Positions 1 through 19,045 of a DNA stretch of 64,000 nucleotides are shown piece after piece (positions within the stretch are counted from its first letter, which is position 1; every line of letters begins with the position of its first letter). The notes under the pieces are model-generated. The model did no database searches and had not been told where the DNA came from. It saw only the letters and a program-made list of their open reading frames with translations. Origin of the DNA: Kosakonia radicincitans DSM 16656 (GTDB lineage: Bacteria; Pseudomonadota; Gammaproteobacteria; Enterobacterales; Enterobacteriaceae); NCBI RefSeq assembly GCF_000280495.2, contig NZ_CP018016.1, forward strand, positions 4,960,001-5,024,000, in the 5' to 3' direction. Made by a program: the position numbers and the translations under genes.

Positions 1-459
1 CGGTAGCGGTTCGATACCCAGCGCGGAAAAATAGCTGGAGGTTTCATTTTCGTAATGAGAAATAACCCCGGTAAACTCCAGTTGCCCGGCAAGTGTAGAA
101 ATATCTGCCGCCAGTTCCGGTTCGCTTAATATCGCCTGTTTTAAAGACGGGTAATCCGCAATCAGGCTTTTATTTTTATTGGACGTGGCAAAATAATTCT
201 GGTGGTAGATCTGCACGTGACCACTATTCGTGCGGACCGTTTGCTCTTTTAAGATCCAGAACGAGTAATCGATAAATCCGCCATACAGGAAAATGGCGAC
301 GCCCCCCAAAATAATCGCCGACAGGGTCGAAAATGAGCGGCGCTTATGTCGGAAGAGGTTGAGAAATGCGAATTTCACGTCCCGCGCATGCATCACGGTA
401 CACCACAACAGAAAAAGCAGAATCAGTAGCACAATAGCGTTAATAAAGATCATGCTCAT
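1..459 (-). CDS. FtsX/MacB-like ABC transporter permease (N-terminal part)
   Basis: The reading frame starts at an ATG at 459, directly after the stop of the upstream gene (460-462), and stays open to the window edge, so about 153 N-terminal residues are visible. The protein begins with a hydrophobic segment (about residues 3-22), then a basic stretch (FRHKRRS) and a second hydrophobic segment (about 45-62), followed by a soluble periplasmic-type domain. This is the N-terminal layout of LolC/MacB-type permeases with a MacB_PCD domain. The ATPase at 1100-1807 belongs to the same LolD/MacB class, so the two should form one transporter. These transporters typically move lipoproteins, lipids or peptides out of the inner membrane. 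The substrate is not known; the operon suggests an acyl product or the protein it modifies. The C-terminal half lies outside the window. Confidence 0.8.
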   Translation of the reverse strand, partial: MSMIFINAIVLLILLFLLWCTVMHARDVKFAFLNLFRHKRRSFSTLSAIILGGVAIFLYGGFIDYSFWILKEQTVRTNSGHVQIYHQNYFATSNKNKSLIADYPSLKQAILSEPELAADISTLAGQLEFTGVISHYENETSSYFSALGIEPLP

Positions 460-1116
460 TTACTCACCCTTCACCAGCGGCAGCAGCACCTGCGCCACTT
501 CATTCTCATCCCACGCAGGCGCAACGTTGTTATGTAATTCCAGTGCCTTTGCCGCGACAGCGTCCTGGAGTTTTATTTGTGCCAAAAGCTGTGCGGCTTG
601 CGGGTATTTTTTGCAGTTATAGAGCGCGAGATAACGCATATGCTGGATCCGCGCAATTTGTGCAGGGTTAAAGAGCGTCTTATCTTTCAGCATCCATTCG
701 GTATCCTTGATCGTGACCGCGCAGCGTCCCATTTCCGGCGCCAGCCAGGCATCGACGCGTGCACGCATATAGCGCACCCGTAAATTATCTTCATGGCTGT
801 CAATAGCTTCATCGAGGTAGAAAAAACCGGTTTTGGCATATTCAGACGCGTTAATAAAGTCGTTCACCGCTGAGGCGTTTTCCGCCTGGCGCAGCACGCC
901 CCAGGCATAAAAGATTAACGAGACGACATTTTTTGTTTCGCCATACTCTTTGAACAGTGCGCTGGTTACGATGGCCAGTTGATCGGGCTGTGCCGGGAAA
1001 CCGCTCCGCATAACGCTTTCAACCGCCGGTACGCTGGAAGCATTGGCCACACCCGCGCAGGTAATGCTAAGCAGCCCTGCGCAGATAACGTCCCGCCATT
1101 TACGCCCTTGAGTCAT
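460..1116 (-). CDS. Secreted helical-repeat protein of the ABC export module, function unknown
   Basis: About 218 residues. I prefer the ATG at 1116 over the one at 1131 because a GGAGGA ribosome-binding site sits 7 bases before it and because the protein then opens with a clear signal peptide (basic start, hydrophobic core, cleavage near VANA-SS). The mature part is alpha-helical with TPR-like spacing (for example YAKTGFFYLDEAI and a C-terminal YPQAAQLLAQIK stretch). I do not recognise the family. The gene overlaps the end of the ATPase gene by 17 bases and abuts the permease gene, so the three are translationally coupled. It probably acts in the periplasm as an accessory of the ABC system, but that is inference from position. 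Confidence 0.7.
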   Translation of the reverse strand: MTQGRKWRDVICAGLLSITCAGVANASSVPAVESVMRSGFPAQPDQLAIVTSALFKEYGETKNVVSLIFYAWGVLRQAENASAVNDFINASEYAKTGFFYLDEAIDSHEDNLRVRYMRARVDAWLAPEMGRCAVTIKDTEWMLKDKTLFNPAQIARIQHMRYLALYNCKKYPQAAQLLAQIKLQDAVAAKALELHNNVAPAWDENEVAQVLLPLVKGE

Positions 1117-1807
1117 ACACCAATCCTCCATCCTTAATTTCTACCACCCGGCGCGCGCACTCCTTTAACTGCGCGGAATGCGTGGAGATGATGAATGTGG
1201 TCTTCGTCTGCTGATTGATATGCAGCAGAAGTTCCAGAATGGCTTCGCCGGTTGCCATATCCAGGTTACCGGTCGGTTCATCGGCGATAACGACCGCCGG
1301 GTCATGCGCCAGGGCTCTGGCAATCGCCACCCGCTGCTGCTGCCCGCCGGAGAGCTGGCCAGGTTTACGGTTGGCAAAATCTTCCAGACCAACACGATTC
1401 AGTAAGTCACGCGTTCTTTCACGCGCCTCTTTTTTACCGAAATGACCATTCAGGATCAGGGGATAAAAAACGTTATCAAAAACATTCAGAACAGGAATGA
1501 GATTGAAAAATTGAAAAATAAATCCCAGATGCTTACCGCGCACCGTTGATAACTCTTCTTCCGGTAATACATTGAGTAATTTATTCAAAAACATCACCGC
1601 TCCGGATGTCGGCTGATCGATACCAGACATGATATTTAGCAACGTACTTTTTCCGCTGCCCGAAGGGCCGCATAATGCCAGAAATTCACCTTTCGCGATT
1701 TCCAGATTAATATCCCTCAGCGCGTCGATTTTTCCCTCGCCGGAACCATAGCTCTTCGAAATATGACTAAGTAATATTGCTGGTAGTTCTCTGATTATGT
1801 CACTCAT
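1100..1807 (-). CDS. ABC transporter ATP-binding protein, LolD/MacB type
   Basis: This 235-residue protein has all ABC ATPase motifs: Walker [10 protein letters not shown] (about residues 47-55), Q-loop [10 protein letters not shown], signature LSGGQQQR, Walker [13 protein letters not shown] and the H-loop STHS. The DEPTGNLD form and the length are typical of LolD/FtsE/MacB ATPases, which partner FtsX-like permeases. It should energise the permease at 1-459 from the cytoplasmic side. It is co-transcribed between the ketosynthase-like gene (1818-2774) and the periplasmic protein gene, linking export directly to the acyl-synthesis genes upstream. Confidence 0.93.
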
Positions 1808-1817
1808 CGCAATGTCG

Positions 1818-2774
1818 TTACCCTACAGAATATTCAATATCAAAATAGTGATAACCAGATAAATTATCCGGCACGATAGTGCGAATTTTTCCGGAAGCAA
1901 CAGGATGTTGACGCAAATATTCAAAGCTTAGTGCAGGAGTCAGACAACCGCTGTAACCATAAATATCGGCAAGGCGAATAACCTTTTGCTGCAGCTCTGC
2001 CGGAAATGATTTTTCCCGTAAGCCTGCAAATGCCATGATTTCGACATCCTCAGCGTTGAGCTGCGAAATATCGGCACGTCCGGCCGCCATATAGCGACCA
2101 CTATTCACTTTCAATGCACTTTCGTGACGGCTGAAAATAAAACATCCCACGCGTTCAACCGTCAGGTTAACCCCATCAGCTTGCTGAGCGCTTTTCGCCC
2201 ACCGCGCAACGGCAATATCTTCCTCAGAAAAGACCATGATCGGGATGGCGCGATAGGCACAGCAAATCACCACATAATCGAAAACATCCCAGCACAGATA
2301 ATCCTGCGCCATGCTCATTGCCTGAGTGAATGCATATTTCTCACCGCGCATTTTGCAGGTCGGATCGTTAACAGAAAATTTCTTCACCAGATTTTTCGGT
2401 AACGTGTCGAGCATCGAAATATGCAATGCGCTGGAAATACTCTCCAGCAGCCCGGTTTCTCCCCACGAATCCGCATAGATAAATGCCGTTCGCGATTTGA
2501 ATAATTTCATCCGTTCTTTCGTGGATAAAGCCTGTAGCGCAACATCTGCGGCCTGCTCCATCGCCTCAAGGTATTTTATATACTGCGGGTTACGGATCAT
2601 CTCACCGGCATAGAGCGAGCCATCGGTACCAAAACGTTTAAGTCCCCACCCATTCTTCCGGGTAGACTTAAGCGCCAGATTATATAAATGCGCTTCCCAG
2701 GCATTCAGCCAACTGGGTTGATAGAAATAAAACCTGTCTTCCGGCTCAATAAGAGCAAACGATGATAAGTACAT
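1818..2774 (-). CDS. Degenerate ketosynthase-like (thiolase-fold) protein
   Basis: About 318 residues. The ATG at 2774 is preferred over 2786: a GGAAGG ribosome-binding site lies 4 bases before it, while the earlier ATG has none. No confident family match is evident by eye. Several stretches resemble ketosynthase landmarks: a helix/strand pair like the nucleophile elbow region (AFTQAMSMAQDYL then VVICCAYRAIPIM), an AGxxVFS-like strand (VGCFIFSRHES) and a YGYSGCLTPA stretch at the place of the usual GHxxGAAG. No catalytic Cys-His-His set can be assigned. It lies between an active-looking ketosynthase gene (9 bases beyond its preceding ATG) and the ABC ATPase gene. It may be a non-catalytic partner of the ketosynthases; this is inference. 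Confidence 0.45.
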   Translation of the reverse strand: MYLSSFALIEPEDRFYFYQPSWLNAWEAHLYNLALKSTRKNGWGLKRFGTDGSLYAGEMIRNPQYIKYLEAMEQAADVALQALSTKERMKLFKSRTAFIYADSWGETGLLESISSALHISMLDTLPKNLVKKFSVNDPTCKMRGEKYAFTQAMSMAQDYLCWDVFDYVVICCAYRAIPIMVFSEEDIAVARWAKSAQQADGVNLTVERVGCFIFSRHESALKVNSGRYMAAGRADISQLNAEDVEIMAFAGLREKSFPAELQQKVIRLADIYGYSGCLTPALSFEYLRQHPVASGKIRTIVPDNLSGYHYFDIEYSVG

Positions 2775-2795
2775 CAAACCTTCCATGGTTATTCA

Positions 2796-4010
2796 TCACG
2801 CGGGATTAATTGCAGACAGCACAATCCCAATTACCGAGCCATCCACACCGACGCCAACCTTCAGCAAATGATTTTTTTCATGCCCGCATACGCCGCGATC
2901 AATCAGCATAAACGGTGCCATCACATCCAAAATGGCGTCATTACTTACCGGAGCAATTAATTCGCGCTGGGTTAATGAGTGATGGGCAATAATCAAATCG
3001 ATAATGCCGGAGCCGGTCGCGCAGTAACCAATCTGCCCCTTATACGCCAGCACAGGAATCGCGTGCGAATCAGCAAATATTTCAATCGCTTTGGCTTCGG
3101 CTTTATCGCTGACGGAAGAACCATTGCCATGAGGAATAATGGCGCATAAATCCTGCACATTAACGCCCGCTTTATCGGTCACCGCACGCATGATTTTCAG
3201 GACATTCAGACTCAGCCAGGAAGCATCATTACTTCTGCCGGCGCTAATTTGCGCGTAGGAGGATTGCAGGCGCACGCCGCCCGTGACATCTCTGTCGCGA
3301 CGGTGGCGCAGGCTCTCCAGCACAACAACGCTGAACCCTTCGGAGAACAATACGCCTTTGCTGTTTTCACCAAACGGCTGGACTACTTCACTGTCCAGCA
3401 TCGACTGAGAATCAAGGAACCAGATATCCTGGGTTTTAATTTTCGAACAATTAATCACCACAACCAGGTCGATACCGCCCTGCTCGATCGCCTGGCAACC
3501 CAAATGAACGGCCGTCAACGATGAATTACTGGTGCAGTTCATATTTGGCGGCAAATACTGCAACTGGTATTTCTGCGCAAGTCTGCACGCTATCGTATCC
3601 TGCGACATATTCGATACGTGCAGGCGGGTTAATGAGCGGGTGAGCTTAATATCTTCAACGTCATTGCGATCGTAAAAAGCGTGATAATCGATGCCATCGA
3701 CGCGCCTGCCCAGCCCGGTTAAATAAACCCGCACGTTATTGCCTGCGAGAGAGTGTGTATCCAGTTTGGCCTGCGCAAGTGCCTCCTCGATCAACTGATA
3801 CACAATCTCTAATGCGCCATCATTAATGTGCTCCAGCCTGGCGACATATTTATTGCCATTAAACCCGCAGGTAATTGCCTCGTCATCAGAACGAAACCAG
3901 GGTTTCCTTTCCACCCGCTTCCCCTGACGAAGATACTCGATAAGCTGAACACTATTTCCGGCAAAGGGTAAATGTGCACTGTAGCCTGAAATGATGGCGG
4001 CATTTTCCAC
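2796..4010 (-). CDS. Beta-ketoacyl-ACP synthase-like protein with altered active site
   Basis: A 404-residue ketosynthase-family protein, the normal length for FabF/FabB-like enzymes. Visible landmarks are the nucleophile motif NCTSNSS (Cys159) and PHGNGSS (His294, in place of HGTGT). The second catalytic His of the GHxxGAAG motif is replaced by Tyr (GYCATGSG, Tyr329), after a retained Lys (AYKGQ). A Cys-His-His triad is needed for decarboxylative condensation in elongating enzymes, whereas KASIII and acyl-transfer relatives use other sets, so this protein may prime, acyl-transfer or off-load rather than elongate. Its ATG lies 4 bases after the stop of the fused ketosynthase gene, so the two are tightly coupled. 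Confidence 0.85.
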   Translation of the reverse strand: MENAAIISGYSAHLPFAGNSVQLIEYLRQGKRVERKPWFRSDDEAITCGFNGNKYVARLEHINDGALEIVYQLIEEALAQAKLDTHSLAGNNVRVYLTGLGRRVDGIDYHAFYDRNDVEDIKLTRSLTRLHVSNMSQDTIACRLAQKYQLQYLPPNMNCTSNSSLTAVHLGCQAIEQGGIDLVVVINCSKIKTQDIWFLDSQSMLDSEVVQPFGENSKGVLFSEGFSVVVLESLRHRRDRDVTGGVRLQSSYAQISAGRSNDASWLSLNVLKIMRAVTDKAGVNVQDLCAIIPHGNGSSVSDKAEAKAIEIFADSHAIPVLAYKGQIGYCATGSGIIDLIIAHHSLTQRELIAPVSNDAILDVMAPFMLIDRGVCGHEKNHLLKVGVGVDGSVIGIVLSAINPA

Positions 4011-4014
4011 AGCC

Positions 4015-6573
4015 TTATTCCTTAATTACCAGTGCGTAATAGTTCCCACCTTCCGTTGCCCCTACCAACAAGACATGCTTGATTGCCAGTTTCATCGGTT
4101 GACGGACAAAGTTCACGCGTTCATCGAAGAACGCCACGGTATTAGGAATCGCCGGAACGGACTGTTTTTTAATGCAATCGATGATGACTGCGAGGTTGAG
4201 CAAACCCGCCGCTGAGGCGACAAAACCAAAGCAGGCGTTGTAGTTAACGACCGGGACGTTCGGCTGTTTCTCGCCAAACACCTCGCGGATAGCGTCAATT
4301 TCAATCCGCGAATGCTCGTCGCTGCCATTGCTGGTGCCGCACACCAGATCGATCTCGCGCGCGCTGATGCCAGCGTCCGCAAGCGCACGGGTCACCGCCA
4401 GCGCCATTGAGGACGATTTTTCCGCCAGCTCGGCGACATCGAAGTAACTGTTGCTGCATGACTTCCCGTAACCCACGACTTCCGCCAGCACTTCCGCACC
4501 GCGCGCTGCGGCTGTCTGCGGATCTTCCAGCAGCAACATACAGGCGCCTTCACCCGGCACATACCCTTTGGCGTCTTTGCCGTAGACCTGATAATCGCTT
4601 GCCGCCGAGGTCATCTGGATCTTCTGCGTGACAGCATCCATATAGAGCGACATTGAGGGAAAATATTCATCCGCGCCGCCAACGATCACCTGCGGTTGCA
4701 GGTTCTGGCGCACAATCTCATAGCCGTAGGTTAAGGCGCCGAGCGCAGCATTTTCACCGCTTGCCAGCGTCGTGGTATAGCCTTTGATCCCTTCTGAAAT
4801 GCCGCAGAAGGTGGGAATCGCGTTCATCAGAGAACCCGGAAATTCCGAAGTTCTCACCTTACGCGGATCGGGTTTCAGGCTCTGCAAATATTTATAAGTT
4901 GTTTCCTGCGGACCACGGGACATTCCCATAATCAGGCCCAGCGCATCGCCATCGCGTTTAATTTTACGTTTCCCCTGCTCCAGCGCTTCGCAGAGCGCGA
5001 TAAGGGCAAACGTACCGCCCCGCGTTGCCTTACGCGGATCAAAACGACGTAAGTGCTTGCGTGGCTCCAGGCCCCTTACCTGGAAAGTTTTGAAATTCTT
5101 TTCGCTCTCTGGCAACGTGGCGTTGCTGAAAGAGAAGGCGTCACCGAACAGATCCGCGCACTGCCCGGTCTCATCCAGCACTTTGAGCAGTTCTTTCGCT
5201 TCTTCCAGCGTATCGTCCGGGAAAGTCACTCCGCCCAGTTCAACGTTCTGCTTGCCTTGCCAGACGTTTTCGAGGATCTCATTGAGCGTATGGCCGATAG
5301 CCGATACCGCGCCAATGCCGGAAATCGCCACGCGTTTGGCGTCGTAGGTGCTGACAGGAACGGACGCCGGCTCCATGCTGACGATCATGCAGCAGTTGTT
5401 GCCGCCGAACGCATAGTTATTCTTCATGAAGATATTGATTTTCCGGTCAAGGAAATCATTCGGCACATAGTCCAAATCGCACCCCGGGCGCGCTTTCGAG
5501 AAGTTCAGCGTCGGCAGTACCTGATGACCAGGCAGCGTCACCAGGCAAGCGATTAATTCCACGATGCCCGCCGCGCCGATGTTGTGTCCGAAGTAGGATT
5601 TGGTTGAGCTGATCAGCAGGTTTTCGTGGTTGGCAAAAACCTTTTTCATCGCCAGCGTTTCGATGCGGTCGTTGGCTTCGGTGCCGGTGCCATGCGCATT
5701 GACGTAATCGATCTGCTCAGGCTTCAGCCCGGCATTCTCCAGCGCCTTGTGCATTACCTGCACGGCACCGCTGGCGCGCGGATCCGGCCCGGTTTCATGG
5801 AATGCATCGCAGGAGGTGGCATAAGAGAGGATCTCGCCGTAAATCGTCGCCCCGCGCGCAACCGCATGCTCATACTCTTCAAGCACGATGGCGCCAGCGC
5901 CTTCGCCAATCGACATTCCCGACTGCCCAGAGAAAGGGGTACAGGAGTCCGGATGCATAACGTTCAGCGCATAAAAACCGGCGAATGTCGGCAGGTAGAT
6001 AGGCTCAGTCCCCACGGCCAGCATGGTTTTGCTCTTGCCGTTCTGAATAAAATCATATGCCATGCCCACTGCGTTGGGGCTGGCCGTACAGGCGGTGGCG
6101 ACCAGTTCAACGCCTCCTTTCAGGCCGAGCAGCGTGGAGACGCTGGAGCAGCAGGAAGAGAAGCCGCCGGAGAAGAGCGCCTTGCGCAGGGAAAAGTCTT
6201 GCAGGCGTTGCTCAAAGAGCGGCAAAAACGCTTCGGTCCCTGCGGATGAGACGCCCACGATTAAGCCGGTATCGCACAGGCTTGCCGCGTTATCCGCCAG
6301 CCCTGCCTGATTGAGCGCGTCTTTTCCCACTTTATAAGCCCACAGCGCAGCGTTATCGAGTGAGTCCGCGAGCCCTTCTGGCAGGCCGGAGTAATCGATA
6401 TCATGCAGCACTTCCGCCGCTCTGGCGTTTTCAAACCATGTTGAAAAACGCTCACTGTCAGCAACGCCGCACTTCTTATTCAGCAACGCTTCTCTGAAAT
6501 CCGCGACATTTTCTGCCAGCGACGACAAAATCCCGATGCCGGTGATGACAACCCTTTTCCTGCTTGTCTGCAT
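4015..6573 (-). CDS. Fused ketosynthase/chain-length-factor-like protein (KS-KS)
   Basis: An 852-residue protein with two ketosynthase folds in tandem. The first (about 1-400) has a full catalytic set: TACTAS (Cys162), HGTGT (His294) and FGHNIGAAG (His330), so it should elongate acyl-ACP chains. The second (about 405-852, starting at KRVAISGIGAVS) is recognisable by its fold but has lost all three residues: LASGENA instead of TACSS, CGTSNGS instead of HGTGT, and FGFVASAAG instead of GHxxGAAG. That is the pattern of a chain-length factor (KS-beta), here fused to its partner rather than encoded separately. The next gene, another ketosynthase, starts 4 bases after its stop. The gene begins about 100 bases after the GcvT-like gene, with a long hairpin in between. 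Confidence 0.92.
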   Translation of the reverse strand: MQTSRKRVVITGIGILSSLAENVADFREALLNKKCGVADSERFSTWFENARAAEVLHDIDYSGLPEGLADSLDNAALWAYKVGKDALNQAGLADNAASLCDTGLIVGVSSAGTEAFLPLFEQRLQDFSLRKALFSGGFSSCCSSVSTLLGLKGGVELVATACTASPNAVGMAYDFIQNGKSKTMLAVGTEPIYLPTFAGFYALNVMHPDSCTPFSGQSGMSIGEGAGAIVLEEYEHAVARGATIYGEILSYATSCDAFHETGPDPRASGAVQVMHKALENAGLKPEQIDYVNAHGTGTEANDRIETLAMKKVFANHENLLISSTKSYFGHNIGAAGIVELIACLVTLPGHQVLPTLNFSKARPGCDLDYVPNDFLDRKINIFMKNNYAFGGNNCCMIVSMEPASVPVSTYDAKRVAISGIGAVSAIGHTLNEILENVWQGKQNVELGGVTFPDDTLEEAKELLKVLDETGQCADLFGDAFSFSNATLPESEKNFKTFQVRGLEPRKHLRRFDPRKATRGGTFALIALCEALEQGKRKIKRDGDALGLIMGMSRGPQETTYKYLQSLKPDPRKVRTSEFPGSLMNAIPTFCGISEGIKGYTTTLASGENAALGALTYGYEIVRQNLQPQVIVGGADEYFPSMSLYMDAVTQKIQMTSAASDYQVYGKDAKGYVPGEGACMLLLEDPQTAAARGAEVLAEVVGYGKSCSNSYFDVAELAEKSSSMALAVTRALADAGISAREIDLVCGTSNGSDEHSRIEIDAIREVFGEKQPNVPVVNYNACFGFVASAAGLLNLAVIIDCIKKQSVPAIPNTVAFFDERVNFVRQPMKLAIKHVLLVGATEGGNYYALVIKE

Positions 6574-6607
6574 AAATATTACCTGGAGTTAACGACGAAT
6601 AGGCATG

Positions 6608-6665
6608 AAATAACCAGGCACGGGAAATATCCGCTACCTGCTCTTTATTTCCCGGCTGGTTATTT
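6608..6665 (-). other. Long imperfect hairpin between GcvT-like and KS-KS genes
   Basis: Two nested perfect inverted repeats fill this gap: outer arms AAATAACCAG (6608-6617) and CTGGTTATTT (6656-6665), inner arms CGGGAAATA (6621-6629) and TATTTCCCG (6646-6654), around a 16-base loop. In the mRNA (minus strand) it would fold into a stem of about 19 base pairs interrupted by a small bulge. No run of U follows, so it is not a classic terminator; an RNA-processing, stability or translation-tuning element is more likely. Confidence 0.6.
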
Positions 6666-6672
6666 TCAATAA

Positions 6673-7833
6673 TCAAACTGCGCTTTTTCTTTTGCTGGTA
6701 TCGATATAACTGTGCTCAGTTGGGCTAACCAACATGCTCAAATTATAAATAAACGGCATACCTTTCGTTTGCGCAGCGACCTTTTCATTCGCGGTTTGAA
6801 TATGGAAGCCGCTAATATCGGACCATGCATATTCATTATCGATAAGCGCCAGAGCAATATATCGTTGTAAGGCGGGTGAAAAGAGGGCTTTGACAACTTT
6901 ACCAACCTCATTGCCATCCACCATGACGCGATCGCCAGCGTAAATACCCGCACACGCTTCTGCGGCGATCATACCAATCATTTTCGATTGATGAGTGTCA
7001 TGAGACAGCGCTTCGACAGCCGCTTTACCGACAAAATCTTCTTTGTCGTATTGCACGGCCCATTGCATTTGCAACTCAATGGGATTCAACGTGCTGTGCG
7101 CCAGGCTGCGACCATCCCAGCAAGGATTCTCTACCCGCGCGATGATCTGGTAATCAAGGCCGCCGGTCTGCAAGCGATATTTGTCGCCGATATCGACAAG
7201 TTTCTGCCACTGTTCCGCCAGCGCAGGCTGTTGACCGATCGCCATGTAAGCAAATTCGCCGTGTTTACCACAGCGGAAAATCATCAGCTCATCATCGGTA
7301 CTCATATACTCATAATACGGCAGACCGATAATATCGAAGCCATGAATTTCAGCCATGACTTCCCAGGCGTATGGACCTTCCAGCAGAATAGCGCCCCAGT
7401 TCTCTTCACGCATGGCGCGAATTTCCGGGATCTCCTGGATATCGAGTTCATCCGCTTTTTGCAGACTTTTATTCAGACGCTCAATCAGTTCGCCTGCAGG
7501 AATATCTTCTGAAAGCAGGTAATAACCGTCAGCAGCGCAGAGAACATACACATCACCACGGATCGTGCCATCGTCATTCAGCACCAGAGAGTAGATGCCC
7601 TGCTCATCACGAATAATCGAAACATCGGCGGAAACCAGATGGTTAACCAGCGCCCATGCGTCATCGCCCATCACGCTGACAATCGCTACGTGCGAGTAAT
7701 CGACCAGCAGCGCATTTTCGCGCATCGCCTTATATTCGACCATCGGTTCGTTATAGGCGAAGGGGATGGAATAACCGTTATAAATGCCCATCATGGCATT
7801 ATTTTTCAAATGAATATCATTAAGAGATGTCAT
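6673..7833 (-). CDS. GcvT/DmdA-family aminomethyltransferase-like protein
   Basis: A 386-residue protein with the layout of glycine-cleavage T proteins: an N-terminal folate-binding domain (YNGYSIPFAY, then LLVDYSHVAIVSVMGDDA near residues 42-59, the usual D-xSH...xGxDA region), a central region (QTGGLDYQIIARVE) and a C-terminal GCV_T_C-type domain (IGMIAAEACAGIYAGDRV, GKVVKALFSPAL). Family members move one-carbon units to or from tetrahydrofolate. There is no gcvH or gcvP here; the neighbours are ACP and ketosynthase genes, so this is unlikely to be the housekeeping enzyme. A role in modifying or priming the acyl chain is plausible but inferred. Substrate unknown. Confidence 0.8.
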   Translation of the reverse strand: MTSLNDIHLKNNAMMGIYNGYSIPFAYNEPMVEYKAMRENALLVDYSHVAIVSVMGDDAWALVNHLVSADVSIIRDEQGIYSLVLNDDGTIRGDVYVLCAADGYYLLSEDIPAGELIERLNKSLQKADELDIQEIPEIRAMREENWGAILLEGPYAWEVMAEIHGFDIIGLPYYEYMSTDDELMIFRCGKHGEFAYMAIGQQPALAEQWQKLVDIGDKYRLQTGGLDYQIIARVENPCWDGRSLAHSTLNPIELQMQWAVQYDKEDFVGKAAVEALSHDTHQSKMIGMIAAEACAGIYAGDRVMVDGNEVGKVVKALFSPALQRYIALALIDNEYAWSDISGFHIQTANEKVAAQTKGMPFIYNLSMLVSPTEHSYIDTSKRKSAV

Positions 7834-7868
7834 ATAAGTATCCTGTTAAATTCCCTTTTAAATGCAGA

Positions 7869-8150
7869 TTACGAATTTTTCTTCTGAATGATAAATGTCG
7901 CCAGGCTATTGATACTTCTCATATATGAAGGATCGTCGCTTTCCGTGACTTTAATATCGAATACTTTATCCAGCAGAACAACAATCTCGGTGGCATCCAC
8001 AGAATCCAGCTTCAAACCATTACCAAATAGTGCTGTATCATCATCGATTTGAGATTCATCCCTTTGAATATTCAATCGCTGAATAATTTCAGTTTTGATG
8101 GTCAGCAATACATCTTTGCGCTTTTCAATATCGTCTTTAATTGTAAGCAT
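7869..8150 (-). CDS. Acyl carrier protein
   Basis: A small, acidic 93-residue protein with the ACP four-helix pattern and the phosphopantetheine attachment motif LDSVDATEI; Ser50 would carry the arm. It differs clearly from housekeeping AcpP (which has the DSLD form), as expected for a dedicated secondary-metabolism carrier. It sits between the dehydratase and GcvT-like genes, and a holo-ACP synthase gene in the same operon (9498-9866) could activate it. Base composition is AT-rich compared with the fused ketosynthase gene downstream. Confidence 0.92.
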   Translation of the reverse strand: MLTIKDDIEKRKDVLLTIKTEIIQRLNIQRDESQIDDDTALFGNGLKLDSVDATEIVVLLDKVFDIKVTESDDPSYMRSINSLATFIIQKKNS

Positions 8151-8169
8151 AACTAACTCTCCATGTTAA

Positions 8170-8718
8170 TTACTTAGATTCACGAAAATTAATAATCGTA
8201 CCGTGGCTTATCAGTCGTTTCCCTGCATGGGCCGTAACAGAATAGTGTTTAAAACCATTGGCATCGGAAAATGATAATTTACTTACGACCTCAATAGAAT
8301 CACCGGGAAAAGCTATTTCTTTAAATTTCAGGTTTTGCGCAGCAAGCACACCACGCACCTGCGCACGCCGCGTACGAATAATCTCCAACATTTCAGGCTC
8401 ATTTATCCGCGCATGGATATCACGTAACGAAGTGAGTTCGACATGATATTTCTCACGATAAATTTCGCAAATATCCGTCAGGAAGGAGAAATACTCGCTG
8501 GCCTGACCAAATATTTCTGAAATAATGACGCCGGGCATAATCGGATCGTCAGGGAAATGTCCGGACAACCACGGATCGTTATAGGTGACATGTTTGACGA
8601 CTTTCACGTAGCCATTTTCACCGTATTTATAGTCATCAATTTTGTCGACCATTATCAGGGGCTGTCGCCAGCCGCCCATCTCAAGGAAGATCCTGGCGGG
8701 AATCGTGTATTTAGACAT
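8170..8718 (-). CDS. 3-hydroxyacyl-ACP dehydratase, FabZ-like hotdog fold
   Basis: A 182-residue single hotdog protein. The motif GHFPDDPIMPGVI (about residues 53-65) carries the catalytic His, and the following helix SEIFGQASEY carries the conserved Glu position and Gln. FabZ is usually about 150 residues, so this one has a longer insert or tail (including a charged helix near INEPEMLEIIRTRR). It should remove water from 3-hydroxyacyl-ACP to give the enoyl form. No enoyl reductase gene is present in the operon, so double bonds could remain in the product. It starts 3 bases after the ketoreductase stop. Confidence 0.9.
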   Translation of the reverse strand: MSKYTIPARIFLEMGGWRQPLIMVDKIDDYKYGENGYVKVVKHVTYNDPWLSGHFPDDPIMPGVIISEIFGQASEYFSFLTDICEIYREKYHVELTSLRDIHARINEPEMLEIIRTRRAQVRGVLAAQNLKFKEIAFPGDSIEVVSKLSFSDANGFKHYSVTAHAGKRLISHGTIINFRESK

Positions 8719-8721
8719 AAA

Positions 8722-9483
8722 TCACCGCATTACCAGACCACCATCGATAACGATAGTTTGGCCGACGATATAACTGGAGGCAGAGGAACTTAAGAAAACA
8801 ATGGCGTTTGCCACTTCTTCGCACGTACCGAGCCGTTTTAAGGGAATGGAGCCAACCACGCTGCGCACAACGGTGCGCGAGACTTTTTTCACCATACGCG
8901 ATTCAATCATACCCGGTGCGACAGCGTTAACGCGGATGCCATAAGCAGCCAGTTCGGCCGCCAGCGTGCGGGTAAAGCCCAGCATGGCCCCCTTGGAGGC
9001 GCTGTAATTGGACTGTCCGACACTCGGGATAATGGCGGCAATGGAGGCGACATTGATAATTGCCGGGCTCTGCGCTGAATGCAGTAACGTCAACACGGCT
9101 TTGATTAACCGGAAGACGCTGAGCATATTGGTGTCCATCACCTGGCTGAAATCCTCAAAACTCATTGAGGCAAACAGGCTGTCTTTGACAATACCCGCGT
9201 TATTGACCAGAACATCAATCTTTCCGGCCACTTCAGAGAGATGGGAGCATAGCGCCGCTACGCTCTGCGGATCGGCCAAATCGCACTGCATAATGTGCAG
9301 TTTGTCACCCGCCGGATGTGACGCTTTCAGCGCGTTGAGTTGTGTGGCATTCGATTTATAAAGCGCATAAACAACACAGTTTTGCTCTAAATACTTTGCG
9401 CAAATGCCCAGCCCAATATCGCCACTCGCGCCCGTCACCAGCACGGTGTTTTCATTAAGATCGTTGTATTTATACATATTCAT
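8722..9483 (-). CDS. 3-oxoacyl-ACP reductase, FabG-like SDR
   Basis: A 253-residue classical short-chain dehydrogenase: nucleotide-binding TGASGDIG (about 17-24), NNAG (about 92-95), the catalytic Ser region NVASIAAIIP and YSASK (Tyr/Lys pair), and the PG motif VNAVAPGMIES. These are the features of FabG enzymes that reduce 3-oxoacyl-ACP with NADPH. Co-transcription with ACP, dehydratase and ketosynthases supports this role over a general SDR function. Confidence 0.92.
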   Translation of the reverse strand: MNMYKYNDLNENTVLVTGASGDIGLGICAKYLEQNCVVYALYKSNATQLNALKASHPAGDKLHIMQCDLADPQSVAALCSHLSEVAGKIDVLVNNAGIVKDSLFASMSFEDFSQVMDTNMLSVFRLIKAVLTLLHSAQSPAIINVASIAAIIPSVGQSNYSASKGAMLGFTRTLAAELAAYGIRVNAVAPGMIESRMVKKVSRTVVRSVVGSIPLKRLGTCEEVANAIVFLSSSASSYIVGQTIVIDGGLVMR

Positions 9484-9497
9484 GATAAAAATTTAAG

Positions 9498-9866
9498 TTA
9501 ATAAATAATGACTGTCGCCACGGCGTGAGTCCGGCAATGCGAAATACTCAGGGATACATTCTCCATCCCTTTCTCTGCAAGAATCTCTTTCAGTCTTCCG
9601 GTAAAAACAAATTGCGGGCAACCATACTCGTCATGAATAATTTCGATATCATGAAAGCGAATACCATCGCGAAAACCACAGCCTACCGCTTTTACCACCG
9701 CTTCTTTCGCCGCCCAGAAACCGGAAGCGCATTCATAATTTATATCGGAAGGGTTAATCTTTGTGATTTCCTTTTCAGTATAAACGCGCTCAATAAAATC
9801 CATTTTCCCGTTGGCAATCGCCCGACTTATGCGCGCAACTTCTACAATATCCGTACCAATACGCAT
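9498..9866 (-). CDS. Holo-ACP synthase (AcpS-type phosphopantetheinyl transferase)
   Basis: About 122 residues, the normal AcpS length. It opens with [12 protein letters not shown] (metal-binding Asp) and carries [13 protein letters not shown] (Glu of the metal site and CoA-binding Lys), the two AcpS signatures. It would transfer phosphopantetheine from CoA to Ser50 of the ACP encoded at 7869-8150. A GTG at 9878 in the same frame is an alternative start; neither has a strong ribosome-binding site. The gene sits directly behind tpsB, which places a pathway-specific activating enzyme between the secretion pair and the acyl-synthesis genes. Confidence 0.9.
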
Positions 9867-9884
9867 CGTACTACACACTCAAAA

Positions 9885-11504
9885 TTATAGCTGATACGAG
9901 AAGTTGAAATTAAAGTTAGCCTTGTTCACTACCAAATCACCAGGATATTTCAGCGGCGTAGTGATGGAGAAATCATATCCCAGGCTCTTTATATTCCCTT
10001 CGATACCCATGGCGCCGCCAGCAATAGTTTCATCGCCATAGTAACCATCTTCTTTCACCTGCCCAAAATCCATACCGAAATAGAGTCTGGCATTAGCCGT
10101 ACCTATGGGCCGATAGAATGTATTTTGCAGATAAAAACCACTGTTCCCTGTCAGGCCATAGCTATTTTCAAATCCACGCACACTCCACCGATCGCCCGCG
10201 GTCATCTGATCCTGCAAGGTCAACTGGCGCGGCGCATATTGCGCATAGAAGCTCCCGTTGTAGTAACCATTGGCAAACAGCTGAGTATAATTTCCCTGAA
10301 AGTTAAACAACTGACTTATTGGGCTGACTTCACCATACTGCATATCCGGCGTTTGTTCGCCGCCAAACCATGTTAAGAAACGCTGCCACGAGAGGGTGGC
10401 GTCCAGAGAAGCATCGGCAAACTGCTGCTTATAATTAAGCCCGAACTTCACGTTCCCCATATCGCGGCTCTGTAATACCAGCTCTTCGCCGTCGAGAGTA
10501 TATCCGGAGGTTCTGCGGATAAGCTCGGCACTTGCCGCGATCTTCCTGCTTTTATCACGATAGACCGTCCTTGCTGCTTTCGCGCTCAGGTACTCGCTGT
10601 TACCGGCGTAATCCAGCGAAAAGTAAGAGAGCGGAACCGTTTGTCGCGAATCACTCTTACTGTAGAAAAATGTGTAATTCCAGTAGCCGACCGGGAATGA
10701 ATAGTAGCCACTGATGTTTTGATACTTACCGGTGGTGCTGCTGGTGCCGGCCAGGTAAAAGAGATCGCCTAATTTCGCCGTATTAAAAAGATAGCCTACC
10801 GCAGAGGTTAAATACTGACCGGTCGCTTCATCGCCCCAGTTGTTATAACTTGCTCTGACGCTCCACTTTTTAAAACGGTTAGTGTTAATACTGACGTTGC
10901 TGTAACCATTTTGGCTACCCGGCTCTATATTAATTTTAACATTCACGCCGGGAACAAATTGCAGGTTTTCCAGCCCCTGTTCAATATCACGGATATTCAG
11001 AATATCTTCATTTTTAAAAGGTAACATCCACGCGCGAATATCATCACCAGCAACAATGACATTTTCAATCTTACCTGCTTCGACGGTAAATTTGAGTTCA
11101 CCGGTAGAGATATTCTGTGTCGGAATGATAACCCGCGTAGTTACATAGCCCGCATCAATATAATAATCCTGCAAAGCTGATGCGACTGTATTAATACCTG
11201 CAACACCGATACAGCGCCCGGCAATGTTCTCATTAATAGATTGCGTAATTTTAGCTTTTAGAAAATCATTTTCAAGAAGAACATTCTTGACAGTAAAACA
11301 ATTTTCTTCCCTGGGAAGATCTTGCAGAGTAAATACTTTCCGATCGGTATTTGAGAAAACATCTTTTTTCTCAAACTGTTGTTCATGCAGCACGCTGGCA
11401 TCCGCATTCTTTTGCTGTTTTATCAGGTTATCAACATTATCCTTTGCTGATACCTGAGTGCCCACAATCATGAGCATACAAAAAGCTATAAATCGCAATT
11501 CCAT
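9885..11504 (-). CDS. Two-partner secretion outer-membrane transporter (TpsB, ShlB/FhaC family)
   Basis: About 539 residues. The start at 11504 gives a good signal peptide (MELRFIAFCMLMIVG...VSA) and has an AGAGTGA site before it; an upstream in-frame start at 11546 would add 14 unlikely residues. The mature protein has an N-terminal helix and linker, a POTRA region (ATALQDYY-like to VNVKINIEPGSQ, about residues 100-200), and a C-terminal beta-barrel with alternating strands and the RGF motif (WSVRGFENSYGLTGNSG) typical of FhaC loop L6. It should translocate the TpsA protein encoded just upstream across the outer membrane. Confidence 0.93.
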   Translation of the reverse strand: MELRFIAFCMLMIVGTQVSAKDNVDNLIKQQKNADASVLHEQQFEKKDVFSNTDRKVFTLQDLPREENCFTVKNVLLENDFLKAKITQSINENIAGRCIGVAGINTVASALQDYYIDAGYVTTRVIIPTQNISTGELKFTVEAGKIENVIVAGDDIRAWMLPFKNEDILNIRDIEQGLENLQFVPGVNVKINIEPGSQNGYSNVSINTNRFKKWSVRASYNNWGDEATGQYLTSAVGYLFNTAKLGDLFYLAGTSSTTGKYQNISGYYSFPVGYWNYTFFYSKSDSRQTVPLSYFSLDYAGNSEYLSAKAARTVYRDKSRKIAASAELIRRTSGYTLDGEELVLQSRDMGNVKFGLNYKQQFADASLDATLSWQRFLTWFGGEQTPDMQYGEVSPISQLFNFQGNYTQLFANGYYNGSFYAQYAPRQLTLQDQMTAGDRWSVRGFENSYGLTGNSGFYLQNTFYRPIGTANARLYFGMDFGQVKEDGYYGDETIAGGAMGIEGNIKSLGYDFSITTPLKYPGDLVVNKANFNFNFSYQL

Positions 11505-11524
11505 GAATTCACTCTGAAAGAAGT

Positions 11525-11553
11525 AAAGGCAGCAGCAGTTTGCCACTGCCTTT
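11525..11553 (-). other. Hairpin between tpsA and tpsB
   Basis: Arms AAAGGCAG (11525-11532) and CTGCCTTT (11546-11553) with a 13-base loop. On the plus strand a T-run follows, giving terminator shape in a direction with no gene. In the direction of the operon mRNA the A-run precedes the stem and no U-run follows. It may act as a 3'-end stabiliser or partial attenuator so that tpsA mRNA exceeds that of the downstream genes; this is inference. Confidence 0.5.
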
Positions 11554-11562
11554 TTTTACACC

Positions 11563-14241
11563 TTACATACCAAGAACAGTGCCGGTGTTATTCAATTTCT
11601 TCACATCCTGAGAGAAATCTTCATACGCACCTAACAATGCATCTCTGCCGCTGTTAGTGACAGTATTGGCCGTTATTTTTGCCGAACCATAGCTCAGCAT
11701 ATTGAGATAGTTGTAGACGGTACCGTTAGCGGTGACATCCATATAATTATCACTGACGATATTGCCATGGTTCGTAATATTTTGACCAGCAGAAATGACA
11801 ACCTGCTTACCAACAATATTGCGATTGGTACGGTTTGTCACACTGCCTTTCGTTTTCAGCGTCAGAATTTCACCGCCAGCAATATCACCGTTATTATCAA
11901 TACCATTCAGCGCATCAATAGCCAGGTCTTTACCCGCGGCAATGGTATTCGAGTTATACAGAATACCTTTACTAACGTTGAATTTCAGATCGCCTTCTGC
12001 ATTAATAAAACCGTAGTTCGTGAAACTATTATTCACGTTCAGATTCAGATTCTTATCAGAAGAAATAATCCCGGTCGCATTATTATCAATAATGGAACCG
12101 TTACTGTAGTTTTGCAGAGAAACGGTGCTGATATTCATGTTGCCAGCGCTGGCAGTTGTCGCATAGTTATTGTAGAACATATAACCAACGTCAATCGCCA
12201 TATCACCCGCACTGTACAGCAAACCACGCGTATTATTCAGCGTGCTGGCAGCTTCAAGTTTCATATTGCCGAAGTCGGAAATAATACGACTATTGGTGCT
12301 ATTGATATTTCGGGCAGAAAAAGAGACGCCTTCTTTACCAATCATGCCGCCGATTTGCTGAGGAATACCGAAATATTCACCATATCGGGTACCAAAATCG
12401 TTACCGTTGTTATTAGAAATAGTACCTAATACATTCACGTTCAGTAATTTTCTGGCCACAATCAGCGCAGTATCATTGTTGACGTTGTTTTTAGCATTCA
12501 GGGTGATATTTTCCCCCAGCATCAAACCACCAACATTATCGATATCGCCAGCATTCAGCTCCACATCACTTTTGTTCGAGCTGATAACACCGATGTTGTT
12601 GCTCACCGTACCGCTAACAGCAATATCTACGCCACGATCTGCGCTCAGGCCGCCCCGGTCATTATTCAAAGAGGTGCCACGGGCCAATACTTTAACGCTG
12701 GAGACGATCTTGCCGGTGTAGTTATCGATATCACCGGTGCTCTTAACAGTGACAACGTCGTTCGACGCGATCTGACCGCCACGATTAACGATCCTTTTGG
12801 CTCCAATATAAAGTTCTTTCTGCGAAATGATCCCCAGAGAGTCAGAACTGTTGTTATCTGCCGTTTTGGTCGTTTCATTGCTGATCGTACCGCCAGAACC
12901 GAGTGTGAGATGGCCGTTAGCTGCGCGAATCAACCCTTTGTTATTATTGATATTGCCTGCGCTTAAGATGTCGATATCACCAGCGGACTGCAAGTTACCG
13001 CCAGAGTTATCGATTGACGCCGCTTCAATACCGACATAACCACCGCTAATCTGCCCATTGCGGCTGTTCAGATTGCCGGTTTTTAACGCCACGATACCCG
13101 CTTCAATACCCACGGTTTTACCTTTACCCGTGTTGGTCAGCGTAGCTTTGTTGGTATCGACAGCCAGCATACCGGCGGCAGCGATTTTGCCATTACTGTT
13201 AGTCAGCGCGCCGCTGTTAATATTGATATTACCGTTAGTGGCAATGCGACCTGCGCGGCTGTTTACAATCTCGCCCTTGTTAGTATTGATGGAAATAGTA
13301 TCAATTGAAGAGATTTCGCCGGTCGTATTATCAATTCTGCCATTGGTTTTGATATCAATAAGCCCGGCAGACTGGATTTTCGCATTACTGTTTAGCAGGA
13401 TGCCTTTGGTATCAATTTTGATGCCATTTACGCCGCCAGCAATTGTGCCCTGGTTGCGAACGCCGACACCGGCTTCGGTACTTACCAGGTTAATCTTGTT
13501 GGCATACATCCCGCCAAGCGCAGAAACGTCAACGCTGTAATAGTTGCGCAGCCCGGATGCCGCAACTGTACCCGCAACCTCACCGCGCGCATTAACATAG
13601 TTATTTCCCGCTACGATGTTCAGTTCATCAGCGGTGACTTTTCCATTGATGACAACATTGCGTGACAGGATCTCTGTCGGGCTGGCACTGCTCAGTTTAC
13701 CGACGGTAATGGTGCCGCCATTGACGTTGTATCCCGCCAGTTCGCCATCAGTCAGTTGCGCTTTCCCGGTGGTCAGCGTTAATTTGCCGGTATTGATGGA
13801 GCCACCGCCATTCACCGTAATGCCATTCGGGTTAGCGACGATTAAATCTGCCTTATTGCCCGCGACTTCCATCATGCCATTGATGACGGACGCATTTCTC
13901 GAAACCACTTCGTTCAATATTACTTTGGCCGGGCCGCCAACCAGATTACTGTTCCCTGCAATCTGGCCAGCCAGCACGGTATCCGAGGCCGAAGTACCGT
14001 TATTGAAAATGAGGCCGTTTTTATCAACGTTCAAATCATCCCAGAAGTTATGAGACAACCCACTGGAATTTGGCGTGTTAATATCAACGACCGGCACCCC
14101 ATTGGTGTTATAAACGGTACCATTTTTCATTACTAATCCGGCTGAATTTGCCACTGCCGGCAATGCGCAAATCATCGCAACTGTTAGCGGCCCGAGTTTT
14201 GACCTGACAAACCGTTGAACTTTTTTATCCAATGCACTCAT
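11563..14241 (-). CDS. Filamentous haemagglutinin-like exoprotein (TpsA)
   Basis: An 892-residue protein. It starts with the extended signal peptide typical of TpsA (basic N-region then hydrophobic LTVAMICALPAVANSA), followed by the TPS secretion domain (about residues 35-280) with the VANPNGI hallmark at about 143-149. The rest is beta-helix repeat rich in Asn/Gly/Ser (patterns such as NNNGxI, LNSxxG, VSNxxG). The size is small for an adhesin of this family, and the C-terminus ends abruptly (NNTGTVLGM) with no toxin domain or VENN motif, so it is not a contact-dependent inhibition toxin. It is the first gene of the 14-kb operon; an AAAAGGAATTC site precedes the ATG. Confidence 0.93.
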   Translation of the reverse strand: MSALDKKVQRFVRSKLGPLTVAMICALPAVANSAGLVMKNGTVYNTNGVPVVDINTPNSSGLSHNFWDDLNVDKNGLIFNNGTSASDTVLAGQIAGNSNLVGGPAKVILNEVVSRNASVINGMMEVAGNKADLIVANPNGITVNGGGSINTGKLTLTTGKAQLTDGELAGYNVNGGTITVGKLSSASPTEILSRNVVINGKVTADELNIVAGNNYVNARGEVAGTVAASGLRNYYSVDVSALGGMYANKINLVSTEAGVGVRNQGTIAGGVNGIKIDTKGILLNSNAKIQSAGLIDIKTNGRIDNTTGEISSIDTISINTNKGEIVNSRAGRIATNGNININSGALTNSNGKIAAAGMLAVDTNKATLTNTGKGKTVGIEAGIVALKTGNLNSRNGQISGGYVGIEAASIDNSGGNLQSAGDIDILSAGNINNNKGLIRAANGHLTLGSGGTISNETTKTADNNSSDSLGIISQKELYIGAKRIVNRGGQIASNDVVTVKSTGDIDNYTGKIVSSVKVLARGTSLNNDRGGLSADRGVDIAVSGTVSNNIGVISSNKSDVELNAGDIDNVGGLMLGENITLNAKNNVNNDTALIVARKLLNVNVLGTISNNNGNDFGTRYGEYFGIPQQIGGMIGKEGVSFSARNINSTNSRIISDFGNMKLEAASTLNNTRGLLYSAGDMAIDVGYMFYNNYATTASAGNMNISTVSLQNYSNGSIIDNNATGIISSDKNLNLNVNNSFTNYGFINAEGDLKFNVSKGILYNSNTIAAGKDLAIDALNGIDNNGDIAGGEILTLKTKGSVTNRTNRNIVGKQVVISAGQNITNHGNIVSDNYMDVTANGTVYNYLNMLSYGSAKITANTVTNSGRDALLGAYEDFSQDVKKLNNTGTVLGM

Positions 14242-15096
14242 GTTATTGAATTCCTTTTACCTGGTTTGAAAATTTAATATATATATTTTTTTGCTGTATT
14301 CTTTTAAATGAATATCGCAATACATCTTCCCGAAGTAACATTTAATTTGATAATTCAGTTATATCGAAGAAGTTTCAATGAATAGAAAAGCGGCTTATCG
14401 TAAGCCACATTAATACCATGACTTATTAAAAATAAGCGTCTCATATTATTGAGTGATGTAACAATCAGATGCAATAAACCTTATTTAAGGCAGAGAAAAC
14501 CTAACAGGAAAAGAAAGGTAAAACAATATATCAGAATCCAAATAGGATTTTTCAGATTAATTAAAAATGCAAAAATAAAAAGACAAAGTTATATTGATAA
14601 AGATGACACCAAATAACTTGAAATAAAATTCAAAAATGATTCCCGGGATTTAAAACAGAAAATAGTGAAAAAAACACTGTCTGTCACAATACAGCCTTTA
14701 GACTACCGCCTGCCTCCTCATCATCACATTTCATAACCCTCGCCACTTCCATTTCGCACCCCAACCAGGATTTTTCAATATGTCGCTCCCGAATCACTTA
14801 TTTCACAAGCACACCGTTGATAAACAGATCACATTTCTTACCCTCTGCGGTCATCTTTTTTATTGGCTTCGTGTATTAATTAATAGAAAAATAAGATAAA
14901 ACAAATAATATAATTGCCATTTCTGAATAATCCCATAATTAAAGTCAACATATTGCCTATAGTCTTTACTTTAAATAATATGTAATAAAATCCCTGGGCG
15001 GTGATATTAATGATGGAATGACAAAAGCTGCCATCGGCAAATATTATTTGCCATATCATTATTTCTAAATGGGTTTTAAAACATAAGGATATATAT
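14242..15096. promoter_or_regulatory. AT-rich divergent intergenic region (855 bp) between tpsA and the fimbrial operon
   Basis: No convincing gene is present. The stretch is strongly AT-rich with many A/T runs, a composition typical of H-NS-silenced horizontally acquired promoters (established for enterics; binding here is inferred). It must contain the promoters of both the tpsA operon (leftward) and the fimbrial operon (rightward). A small hairpin (GGCTTA/TAAGCC, 14392-14406) lies about 150 bases before tpsA, probably in its leader. Confidence 0.6.
15036..15052. promoter_or_regulatory. 17-bp palindrome upstream of the fimbrial operon
   Basis: GGCAAATATTATTTGCC is a perfect inverted repeat with 8-base arms around one central base, 45 bases before the first fimbrial ATG (15097). 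It has the form of a dimeric regulator operator; position suggests control of the fimbrial promoter. The regulator is unknown. Confidence 0.5.
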
Positions 15097-15663
15097 ATGC
15101 GAACCGGAATTAAAAAAACGTTACCGTTACTGGGCGTTATGACATTACCGTTACCACTTTTTGCCGCGCCGACAGTGACCTTTCAGGGCGAAATCTCAGG
15201 CCAGACCTGCGACGTACTCATCAATGGCCGCACAGATTCCGTCGTCTTATTACCTACCGTGTCTCTGACCGACTTCAGCCCTCCTGGCACGCCGTTAACC
15301 CAGGGCCAATTTTACGGCCAGACTCCTTTTACTGTTTCAATTAGTGGCTGCCAGTCAACATCCAGCGTGACCAATATCAACACCAATTTCCTTGGTTATA
15401 ACGTTGATCCTACGGGTGTACTTGGCAACAGCTATTCGGGTGGTGATGCGGCGACAGGCTTCGGCATTCAGTTGATGGACGCAGGTTCCGGGGGCACCGA
15501 GATCCGGCTTTCCGGTGTCACCTCCGTGCCTGGGCTGAGCCTTCCGGCCAACCAGACAGAAGCCAGTTATGATTACGGCGCACGCTATTATGTCCTCAAT
15601 AGTACCACTGCCGCCGCCGGTAAAATTACCGCCATTGCTGAATATTCGCTGAGCTATCTCTAA
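15097..15663 (+). CDS. Fimbrial major subunit (type 1 pilin family)
   Basis: A 188-residue pilin with a signal peptide (cleavage near FAA-PT), then VTFQGEISGQTCDV and, about 40 residues on, ISGCQ: the two conserved Cys that form the pilin disulfide. The C-terminus ends in alternating beta residues with a penultimate Tyr (AIAEYSLSYL), as pilins taken up by chaperones do. It is the first gene of the operon; an AAGGAT site precedes the ATG. It should polymerise into the fimbrial shaft through donor-strand exchange. Confidence 0.93.
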   Translation: MRTGIKKTLPLLGVMTLPLPLFAAPTVTFQGEISGQTCDVLINGRTDSVVLLPTVSLTDFSPPGTPLTQGQFYGQTPFTVSISGCQSTSSVTNINTNFLGYNVDPTGVLGNSYSGGDAATGFGIQLMDAGSGGTEIRLSGVTSVPGLSLPANQTEASYDYGARYYVLNSTTAAAGKITAIAEYSLSYL

Positions 15664-15670
15664 ATCAAAA

Positions 15671-15695
15671 CTGGCTGCGTGACGACGTCAGCCAG
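15671..15695 (+). other. Hairpin after the major pilin gene
   Basis: CTGGCTG and CAGCCAG arms with an 11-base loop, 8 bases after the pilin stop and without a T-run. Such hairpins behind major pilin genes are known to stabilise the pilin mRNA or limit read-through into chaperone and usher genes; that role here is inferred. Confidence 0.45.
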
Positions 15696-15740
15696 AAATC
15701 CATTCAATATTACGCAATAAATAACCAGCGCAGGGATAAT

Positions 15741-16460: not shown

Positions 16461-16508
16461 CGTTTGCTTGTGCTAAGGCAGGACTCTTTTCGGTATGGGC
16501 AATCTTCG

Positions 16509-19031: not shown

Positions 19032-19045
19032 AGGGAGAAACCGGC

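Follow-up and report, generated by a model that had tools for sequence, protein, structure and literature searches.

Organization of the operon

The window analyzed here, a 64,000-nucleotide stretch of the Kosakonia radicincitans DSM 16656 genome (NZ_CP018016.1, positions 4,960,001 to 5,024,000), opens within an operon that combines a two-partner secretion (TPS) pair, tpsA and tpsB, with a type II acyl pathway and an ATP-binding cassette (ABC) exporter. The most likely reading of this arrangement is that a TPS exoprotein has been coupled once to a surface-lipid factory. An earlier account made from the letters alone (the sequence-only reading) described 13 open reading frames on the minus strand, all of which are present (Table 1), and Pfam confirms the domains: TPS domain and haemagglutinin repeat, POTRA plus ShlB, ACPS, short-chain dehydrogenase/reductase (SDR), FabA-like, PP-binding, GCV_T, two ketosynthase (KS) repeats in the 852-aa protein, a second ketosynthase protein and ABC ATPase. 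Its claim of one operon of 13 genes holds for their collinearity but not for their number, as the window edge cuts a longer unit. Surrounding genome sequence continues the operon for about 5 kb past the edge, to 17 genes on the same strand, adding beyond the permease a LolA-like protein (280 aa), a barrel protein (462 aa), a FabD-like malonyltransferase (309 aa) and a YcdU-like protein (334 aa). Neighboring genes overlap or are separated by at most 35 bp in 15 of 16 cases, and the widest gap is 99 bp. A promoter scan found 25 promoter-like sites against a mean of 24.6 in shuffled sequence, a level that has no bearing on whether the operon forms a single transcript.

Table 1. Genes of the operon that lie within the window
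Feature	Position	Strand	Evidence
tpsA, secreted beta-helical exoprotein, 892 aa, TPS domain	11563..14241	-	PF05860 141.4 bits, cut-off 33.5
tpsB, outer-membrane TPS transporter	9885..11546	-	PF03865 220.8 bits, PF08479, PF17287
acpS-type phosphopantetheinyl transferase	9498..9878	-	PF01648 68.7 bits; TIGR00516 89.4 bits, cut-off 59.8
FabG-like ketoreductase (KR)	8722..9483	-	SDR family match; YSASK motif
FabZ-like dehydratase (DH)	8170..8718	-	PF07977; His/Glu motif
Acyl carrier protein (ACP)	7869..8150	-	PF00550; serine motif
GcvT-like protein, folate-contact positions changed	6673..7833	-	PF01571 108 bits; residue mapping
KS1, ketosynthase fused to an inactive second half like a chain-length factor (CLF), 852 aa	4015..6573	-	Two KS stretches
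KS2, ketosynthase-like, second catalytic His replaced by Tyr	2796..4010	-	PF00109/PF02801
KS3-like, thiolase-fold protein (predicted), 322 aa	1818..2786	-	No Pfam family; model and Foldseek
LolD/MacB-type ABC ATPase	1100..1807	-	PF00005 125.4 bits
Probably exported protein	460..1131	-	No Pfam family; signal peptide by eye
FtsX/LolCE-like permease, cut by the window edge	1..459	-	Full length 434 aa in locus L006

The listed tpsA and tpsB frames are 16 bp apart, and the POTRA and ShlB/FhaC-type domains of the partner all score over cut-off. By eye, the true start of tpsB lies near position 11504, ahead of a signal peptide. A 13-pair hairpin on the minus strand (window 11525-11553) falls between tpsA and this probable start and might set the ratio of TpsA to TpsB.

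The acyl pathway

The sequence-only reading had proposed a dedicated acyl pathway that lacks a separate enoyl reductase and is joined to an exporter, and the gene content and domains agree with it. KS1 carries the two halves of a condensing pair in one chain. The Cys/His/His triad of its first half is intact in all 31 aligned rows; in the second half these residues are missing by eye, with a Cys near that place in locus L036. The two halves fit a KS-CLF pair that has become fused. The accompanying motifs are also well kept among the 30 locus copies: the ACP serine motif occurs in 30, the KR pattern in 29 and the DH His/Glu motif in 27, and the window copy has each of them. An acyltransferase seemed to be missing in the sequence-only reading because the window edge cut the operon. 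The FabD-like malonyltransferase sits just outside it, and the FabD-like motif is present in all five full-length proteins, this operon's copy included. Phosphopantetheinyl transferase (PF01648) matches occur at five places in the host genome, the operon's acpS being one of them.

The remaining three proteins of the pathway are KS2, the KS3-like protein and the GcvT-like protein. KS2 keeps the first catalytic His, has Tyr in place of the second in 30 of 30 copies and retains Cys in 25 (Ser in three, Gly in one, Asn in one); with these residues KS2 is unlikely to condense malonyl units. The KS3-like model (pLDDT 69, built from 14 sequences) has a predicted thiolase fold, with OleA as its best Foldseek match (E 1.6e-11, TM score about 0.55) among 837 chains at E ≤0.001. 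An 18-row family alignment has no invariant Cys or His in this protein, but Cys215 is nearly invariant, making a cysteine-based role possible. The GcvT-like protein has the aligned catalytic Asp94 in 32 of 32 rows (in alignment A1, Asp in 12 of 14 and Glu in 2 of 14), a residue that we take to correspond to T. maritima Asp96 with its catalytic role. At the positions of the presumed folate contacts, Tyr188 and Arg227, the residues are changed, to Lys in 31 and Arg in 1 of 32 rows, and to Gln in 25 and Leu in 7. The protein thus shares the Asp of the GcvT aminomethyltransferase but departs from it in these folate-contact residues and in its score, 109.9 bits with TIGR00528 against an equivalog cut-off of 235.85.

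Export proteins and TpsA

The best NCBIfam model for the ABC ATPase is LolD (233.9 bits, cut-off 307.75 not reached), with MacB (209 bits) and darobactin exporter (201.5 bits) models also matching under their cut-offs. The permease scores 93.6 bits with the LolCE equivalog, below the cut-off of 362.45. The LolA-like protein matches PF17131 with 125 bits. The barrel protein, modeled on the copy of locus L014, is predicted to be a beta-barrel (pLDDT 79) nearest to OccD2 (E 5e-13) and AlgE (E 1e-11) at a TM score of about 0.5, while the YcdU-like protein has about six hydrophobic stretches.

The only Cys of the window TpsA lies in its signal peptide, leaving the mature protein free of cysteine; a lipoprotein-type Cys anchor was rejected for it on this ground. 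No Lys is common to all 28 aligned TpsA proteins, the best-kept one being present in 24. With neither a mature Cys nor a fully conserved Lys, TpsA offers no obvious shared site of attachment. The window TpsA may begin with Gly after cleavage, which would allow N-terminal glycine acylation of the CexE/Aap type. As a mechanism for the whole group this was rejected, since by eye the residue following the signal peptide varies among relatives. Pfam recognized no protein-acylating enzyme among the 17 proteins, of which four match no family. Two loci, L020:199-6240 and L033:197-6196, have a tandem pair of tpsA genes ahead of a single tpsB.

Distribution of the operon

The gene order of the window recurs in other genomes, as the sequence-only reading had suggested searching for. 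A GcvT-like profile search gave 31 loci in other species or strains, and in 21 of these tpsA-tpsB-acpS and the acyl genes follow each other on one strand; the other 10 have the acyl-core genes in the same order within the sequence covered. The order is not chance. Those ten comprise two loci with tpsB only, four with tpsA only, two without adjacent TPS genes, one cut by a contig end and one from Desulfatitalea, which has no TPS genes in its 15.7 kb. The four tpsA-only loci belong to Proteus, Morganella and Providencia, and in them the LolA-like and barrel genes are missing between the permease and the FabD-like gene. Neither PF17131 nor the barrel gave a match in the four Proteus-type genomes, the barrel search having been run without a positive control. 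The proteins of the K. sacchari locus L014 are 91-100% identical to those of the window operon, and the KS3-like protein shares 92% identity with one from K. radicincitans.

Within the host family, 30 of 392 sampled genomes carry the KS3-like gene. Their neighborhoods hold tpsA and tpsB in 15 (the window included), tpsB only in one, tpsA only in one and no adjacent TPS genes in 11; two are cut by contig ends, which leaves 28 resolvable genomes. In some of these neighborhoods the automated calls missed or split a few genes, such as acpS in L137, ACP in L124 and L131, and KS1 in L138. In an order-wide sample the KS3-like gene occurs in 6 of 394 genomes, including two from other families; phylum and class samples gave 2 of 398 and 1 of 369 genomes, with each of these last matches inside the host family. 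"TPS-free" here means that no TPS genes stand beside the operon: TPS-domain genes occur somewhere in 8 of 9 genomes searched, including those of the TPS-free loci L036 and L042. Each of the 11 TPS-free operons has an additional SDR gene that the TPS-bearing operons do not contain within the sequence covered. Three of these SDRs were tested and have the FabL enoyl reductase as best model at 158-191 bits, short of the cut-off of 328; one further extra protein of these operons matches DUF6134.

The same gene set is found in E. coli. Locus L007, from a pig isolate, has the 17-gene order ending in ycdU and the divergent fimbrial operon of the window and L006, although its TpsA is longer (1270 aa versus 892 aa). 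The window operon aligns to E. coli DNA at 75% identity over 52% of the query (megablast). Among 5426 complete E. coli genomes, 370 match tpsAB and 371 the acyl-ABC stretch (367 and 368 at a coverage of at least 80%). These near-equal counts are not proof that the genomes are the same, but among the matches listed several records appear in both, and E. coli O157:H7 records match both halves. In the K-12-derived strain J53-p133 (L093:5648-6987), ycdU is preceded by a malonyltransferase pseudogene truncated at its 5' end and by an IS3, and its sequence context marks it as a remnant of this operon.

The sequence-only reading knew the combination from no described system, a view that does not survive comparison with E. 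coli O157:H7. Judging by published descriptions, O-island 47 of that organism is probably this operon, and OtpAB probably this tpsAB pair. To judge from L007, O-island 47 would share its gene content and order with the window operon, the window copy being Kosakonia-like. In the parts of the sources available, O-island 47 is given as 31,727 bp from z1528 to z1556 (PMC8565820), and OtpA of E. coli is listed with unknown function (PMC5422565). The gene set is already in print; the comparison across genomes, the motif states, the ycdU remnant, the asymmetry described below and the TPS-bearing clan are new. A literature search found nothing on the product of the operon or on lipid-TPS coupling, within a coverage that was mostly without subscription papers and took the largest result sets by their top-ranked entries.

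Asymmetry between the secretion pair and the lipid module

Comparison of the two halves of the operon shows that their association is unequal. Some TpsB matches that of the window at E ≤1e-30 in 193 of the 392 family genomes. Among the matches listed, TpsB of at least 45% identity is found in 17, of which 16 have it in an acyl-operon neighborhood (one of the 16 without tpsA), and all other matches have at most 36% identity. The sequence-only reading had named tpsAB usually standing without acyl genes as an outcome contrary to its view; for this TpsB subfamily that outcome was not observed, and the association with the TPS pair is real, as the E. coli counts also indicate. Conversely, 11 of the 28 resolvable family genomes have the acyl/ABC core with no TPS genes beside it, and the earlier proposal of a product destined for the adhesin is not supported. 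Taken together, the 16 of 17 TpsB genes with acyl genes and the 11 of 28 TPS-free cores show that the TPS pair accompanies the lipid operon more than the reverse. From this synteny, TpsA would appear to depend on the lipid module more than the module depends on TpsA.

A tree of the GcvT-like and KS1 proteins from 41 loci (25 TPS-type, 4 Proteus-type, 11 TPS-free and Desulfatitalea) places the TPS-bearing operons in one clan, split from the rest with a support of 100. Among the TPS-free loci, supports vary between 43 and 100. Rooted on Desulfatitalea, the tree reads as a single joining of the TPS genes; this root depends on a single long branch, for which 15.7 kb of context was covered.

Comparison with known systems

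The operon resembles several known systems. Like the aryl polyene clusters (apeA-R), it has KS, CLF, KR, DH, ACP and a LolA-like gene, and the two share the idea of an unsaturated chain destined for the envelope. As far as the available part of the source goes (PMC8253772, Table 1, where the LolA-like gene is ApeL), aryl polyene clusters have two ACPs and an RND (resistance-nodulation-division) transporter, while the 17 genes here include one ACP and an ABC ATPase with an FtsX permease, fuse KS with CLF, and bring their own AcpS and FabD-like genes. The acyl-ACP synthetase, lysophospholipid acyltransferase, thioesterase and methyltransferase listed there were not found by Pfam in the 17 proteins. 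The second active FabB-like KS of that list, ApeR, is probably unmatched, given the Tyr of KS2. Membership of the aryl polyene clusters was rejected on ACP number, acyl-ACP synthetase, transporter type and second KS.

Type II polyketide synthases likewise pair an active KS with an inactive KS-like CLF, to which the halves of KS1 would correspond, but as separate proteins rather than a fusion. The LolCDE-LolA sorting pathway shares the LolD-like ATPase, LolCE-like permease and LolA-like carrier; here, however, the scores lie far under the LolD and LolCE equivalog cut-offs, the permease is single and a dedicated barrel is present. With two-partner secretion of the FHA/ShlB type (type Vb) the operon has in common a TPS-domain exoprotein and an adjacent POTRA-ShlB transporter. 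In contrast to that type, these are the first two genes of an acyl-pathway operon, and in Proteus-type relatives tpsA is retained although no tpsB lies next to it.

A model for the operon

The families and intact motifs of the enzymes suggest the steps up to an enoyl chain. AcpS would activate the dedicated ACP, the FabD-like protein would load malonyl units, and the KS-CLF fusion of KS1 would extend the chain, which KR would reduce and DH dehydrate. Since none of the 17 genes looks like a separate enoyl reductase, the chain should stay unsaturated and is perhaps a polyene. The GcvT-like, KS2 and KS3-like proteins may then finish or release it. Judged by family and fold, the LolCDE-like ABC transporter would remove the product from the inner membrane, with the LolA-like protein as its carrier and the OprD/AlgE-like barrel as its passage to the cell surface. 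TpsB probably secretes TpsA, which may act with the lipid on the same surface. Gene content, domains, motif states, the asymmetric synteny and the single clan of TPS-bearing operons are observed; the product class, the export route and this joint action are what we infer from them. An envelope operon of 17 genes, built around a surface-lipid factory to which a TPS exoprotein is coupled, has roughly even chances of being the correct description.

Several observations weigh against this description. Three Kosakonia-type loci with the acyl operon (L021, L024 and L136) have tpsB but no adjacent tpsA. The Proteus-type operons have no tpsB, LolA-like or barrel gene next to them, and the outer-membrane route is thus not shared by all operons. 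In genome G1190, a subfamily TpsB (45% identity) and a TpsA-like gene lie on opposite strands, and the 19.6 kb covered contain no acyl genes. Among the operon proteins, TpsA distances track those of KS1 least (Spearman 0.36, compared with 0.56 for TpsB and 0.51-0.77 for the others). Finally, the ABC proteins fall short of the LolCDE equivalog cut-offs, and the KS3-like and barrel models are only of medium confidence.

Some of these observations would be expected if two independent systems shared one envelope-gene island, perhaps under one promoter, with the TPS pair as a passenger beside the lipid operon. The TPS-free cores, the subfamily TpsB of G1190, the divergent fimbrial operon next door, here and in E. 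coli, and the weak co-divergence of TpsA all favor such an arrangement. Against it, most members of the TPS-bearing clan, Acinetobacter (L029) among them, retain adjacency, order and strand, and both parts occur in almost equal numbers of E. coli genomes; we consider this passenger reading unlikely. Covalent attachment of the acyl chain to TpsA, or its use as the membrane anchor of TpsA, yielding a lipidated TPS exoprotein, is favored by the near-constant position of this TpsB subfamily beside acyl genes and by the Proteus-type operons, which keep tpsA next to acpS despite the missing tpsB. The lack of a recognized protein-acylating enzyme, the absence of mature Cys and universal Lys, the variable residue after the likely signal peptide and the occurrence of the core without adjacent TpsA speak against it, and we consider it distinctly unlikely; that TpsA itself is lipidated, though possible, lacks support. 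Equally doubtful is a historical version in which a lipid-anchored TPS exoprotein arose once, when the TPS genes joined an older surface-lipid operon that dropped its FabL-like reductase and thereby changed the chain. Least probable of all is a diffusible antibiotic or signal exported by a MacB-like pump, with the TPS pair sharing only its regulation: the MacB/FtsX-type permease and the sub-cut-off darobactin exporter and MacB matches of the ATPase favor it, but the LolA-like carrier and large barrel point to an outer-membrane lipid, as with ApeL in the available part of PMC8253772.

Neighboring genes and related loci

A divergent fimbrial operon lies beside tpsA (window 15097-21090), its first gene matching PF00419 and the others assigned by likeness to the annotated E. 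coli locus L007. In the TPS-free relatives L139 and L147, acpS is preceded by a fimbrial operon. Just past the YcdU-like gene, L006:8580-9940 holds an EAL-domain gene and then a small gene with a weak, below-cut-off helix-turn-helix match, both candidate regulators. A weak, below-cut-off LuxR-type match stands directly before acpS in L149, and similar-looking genes are present, by eye, in L139 and L147. The G+C content is about 0.39-0.40 at window positions 14001-16000 and 52001-54000, and 0.42-0.59 in the remaining 2-kb bins. In G1190, a 2.7 Mb genome, the TpsB and TpsA-like genes are about 4 kb apart on opposite strands (L184:9995-18065). The Proteus-type genomes carry other TpsB genes elsewhere, some (L087, L091, L092) without a TpsA match in their short flank; one of these might serve as partner of the Proteus-type TpsA.

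Significance

The operon brings together unusual parts: a KS-CLF fusion, two degenerate KS/thiolase-fold proteins and a GcvT-like enzyme. Its acyl-ABC stretch is carried, at a coverage of at least 80%, by 368 of 5426 complete E. coli genomes, O157:H7 strains included, and the remnant in J53-p133 suggests an origin for the K-12 orphan gene ycdU. The product may represent another class of envelope lipid from a type II assembly line, in addition to the aryl polyenes.

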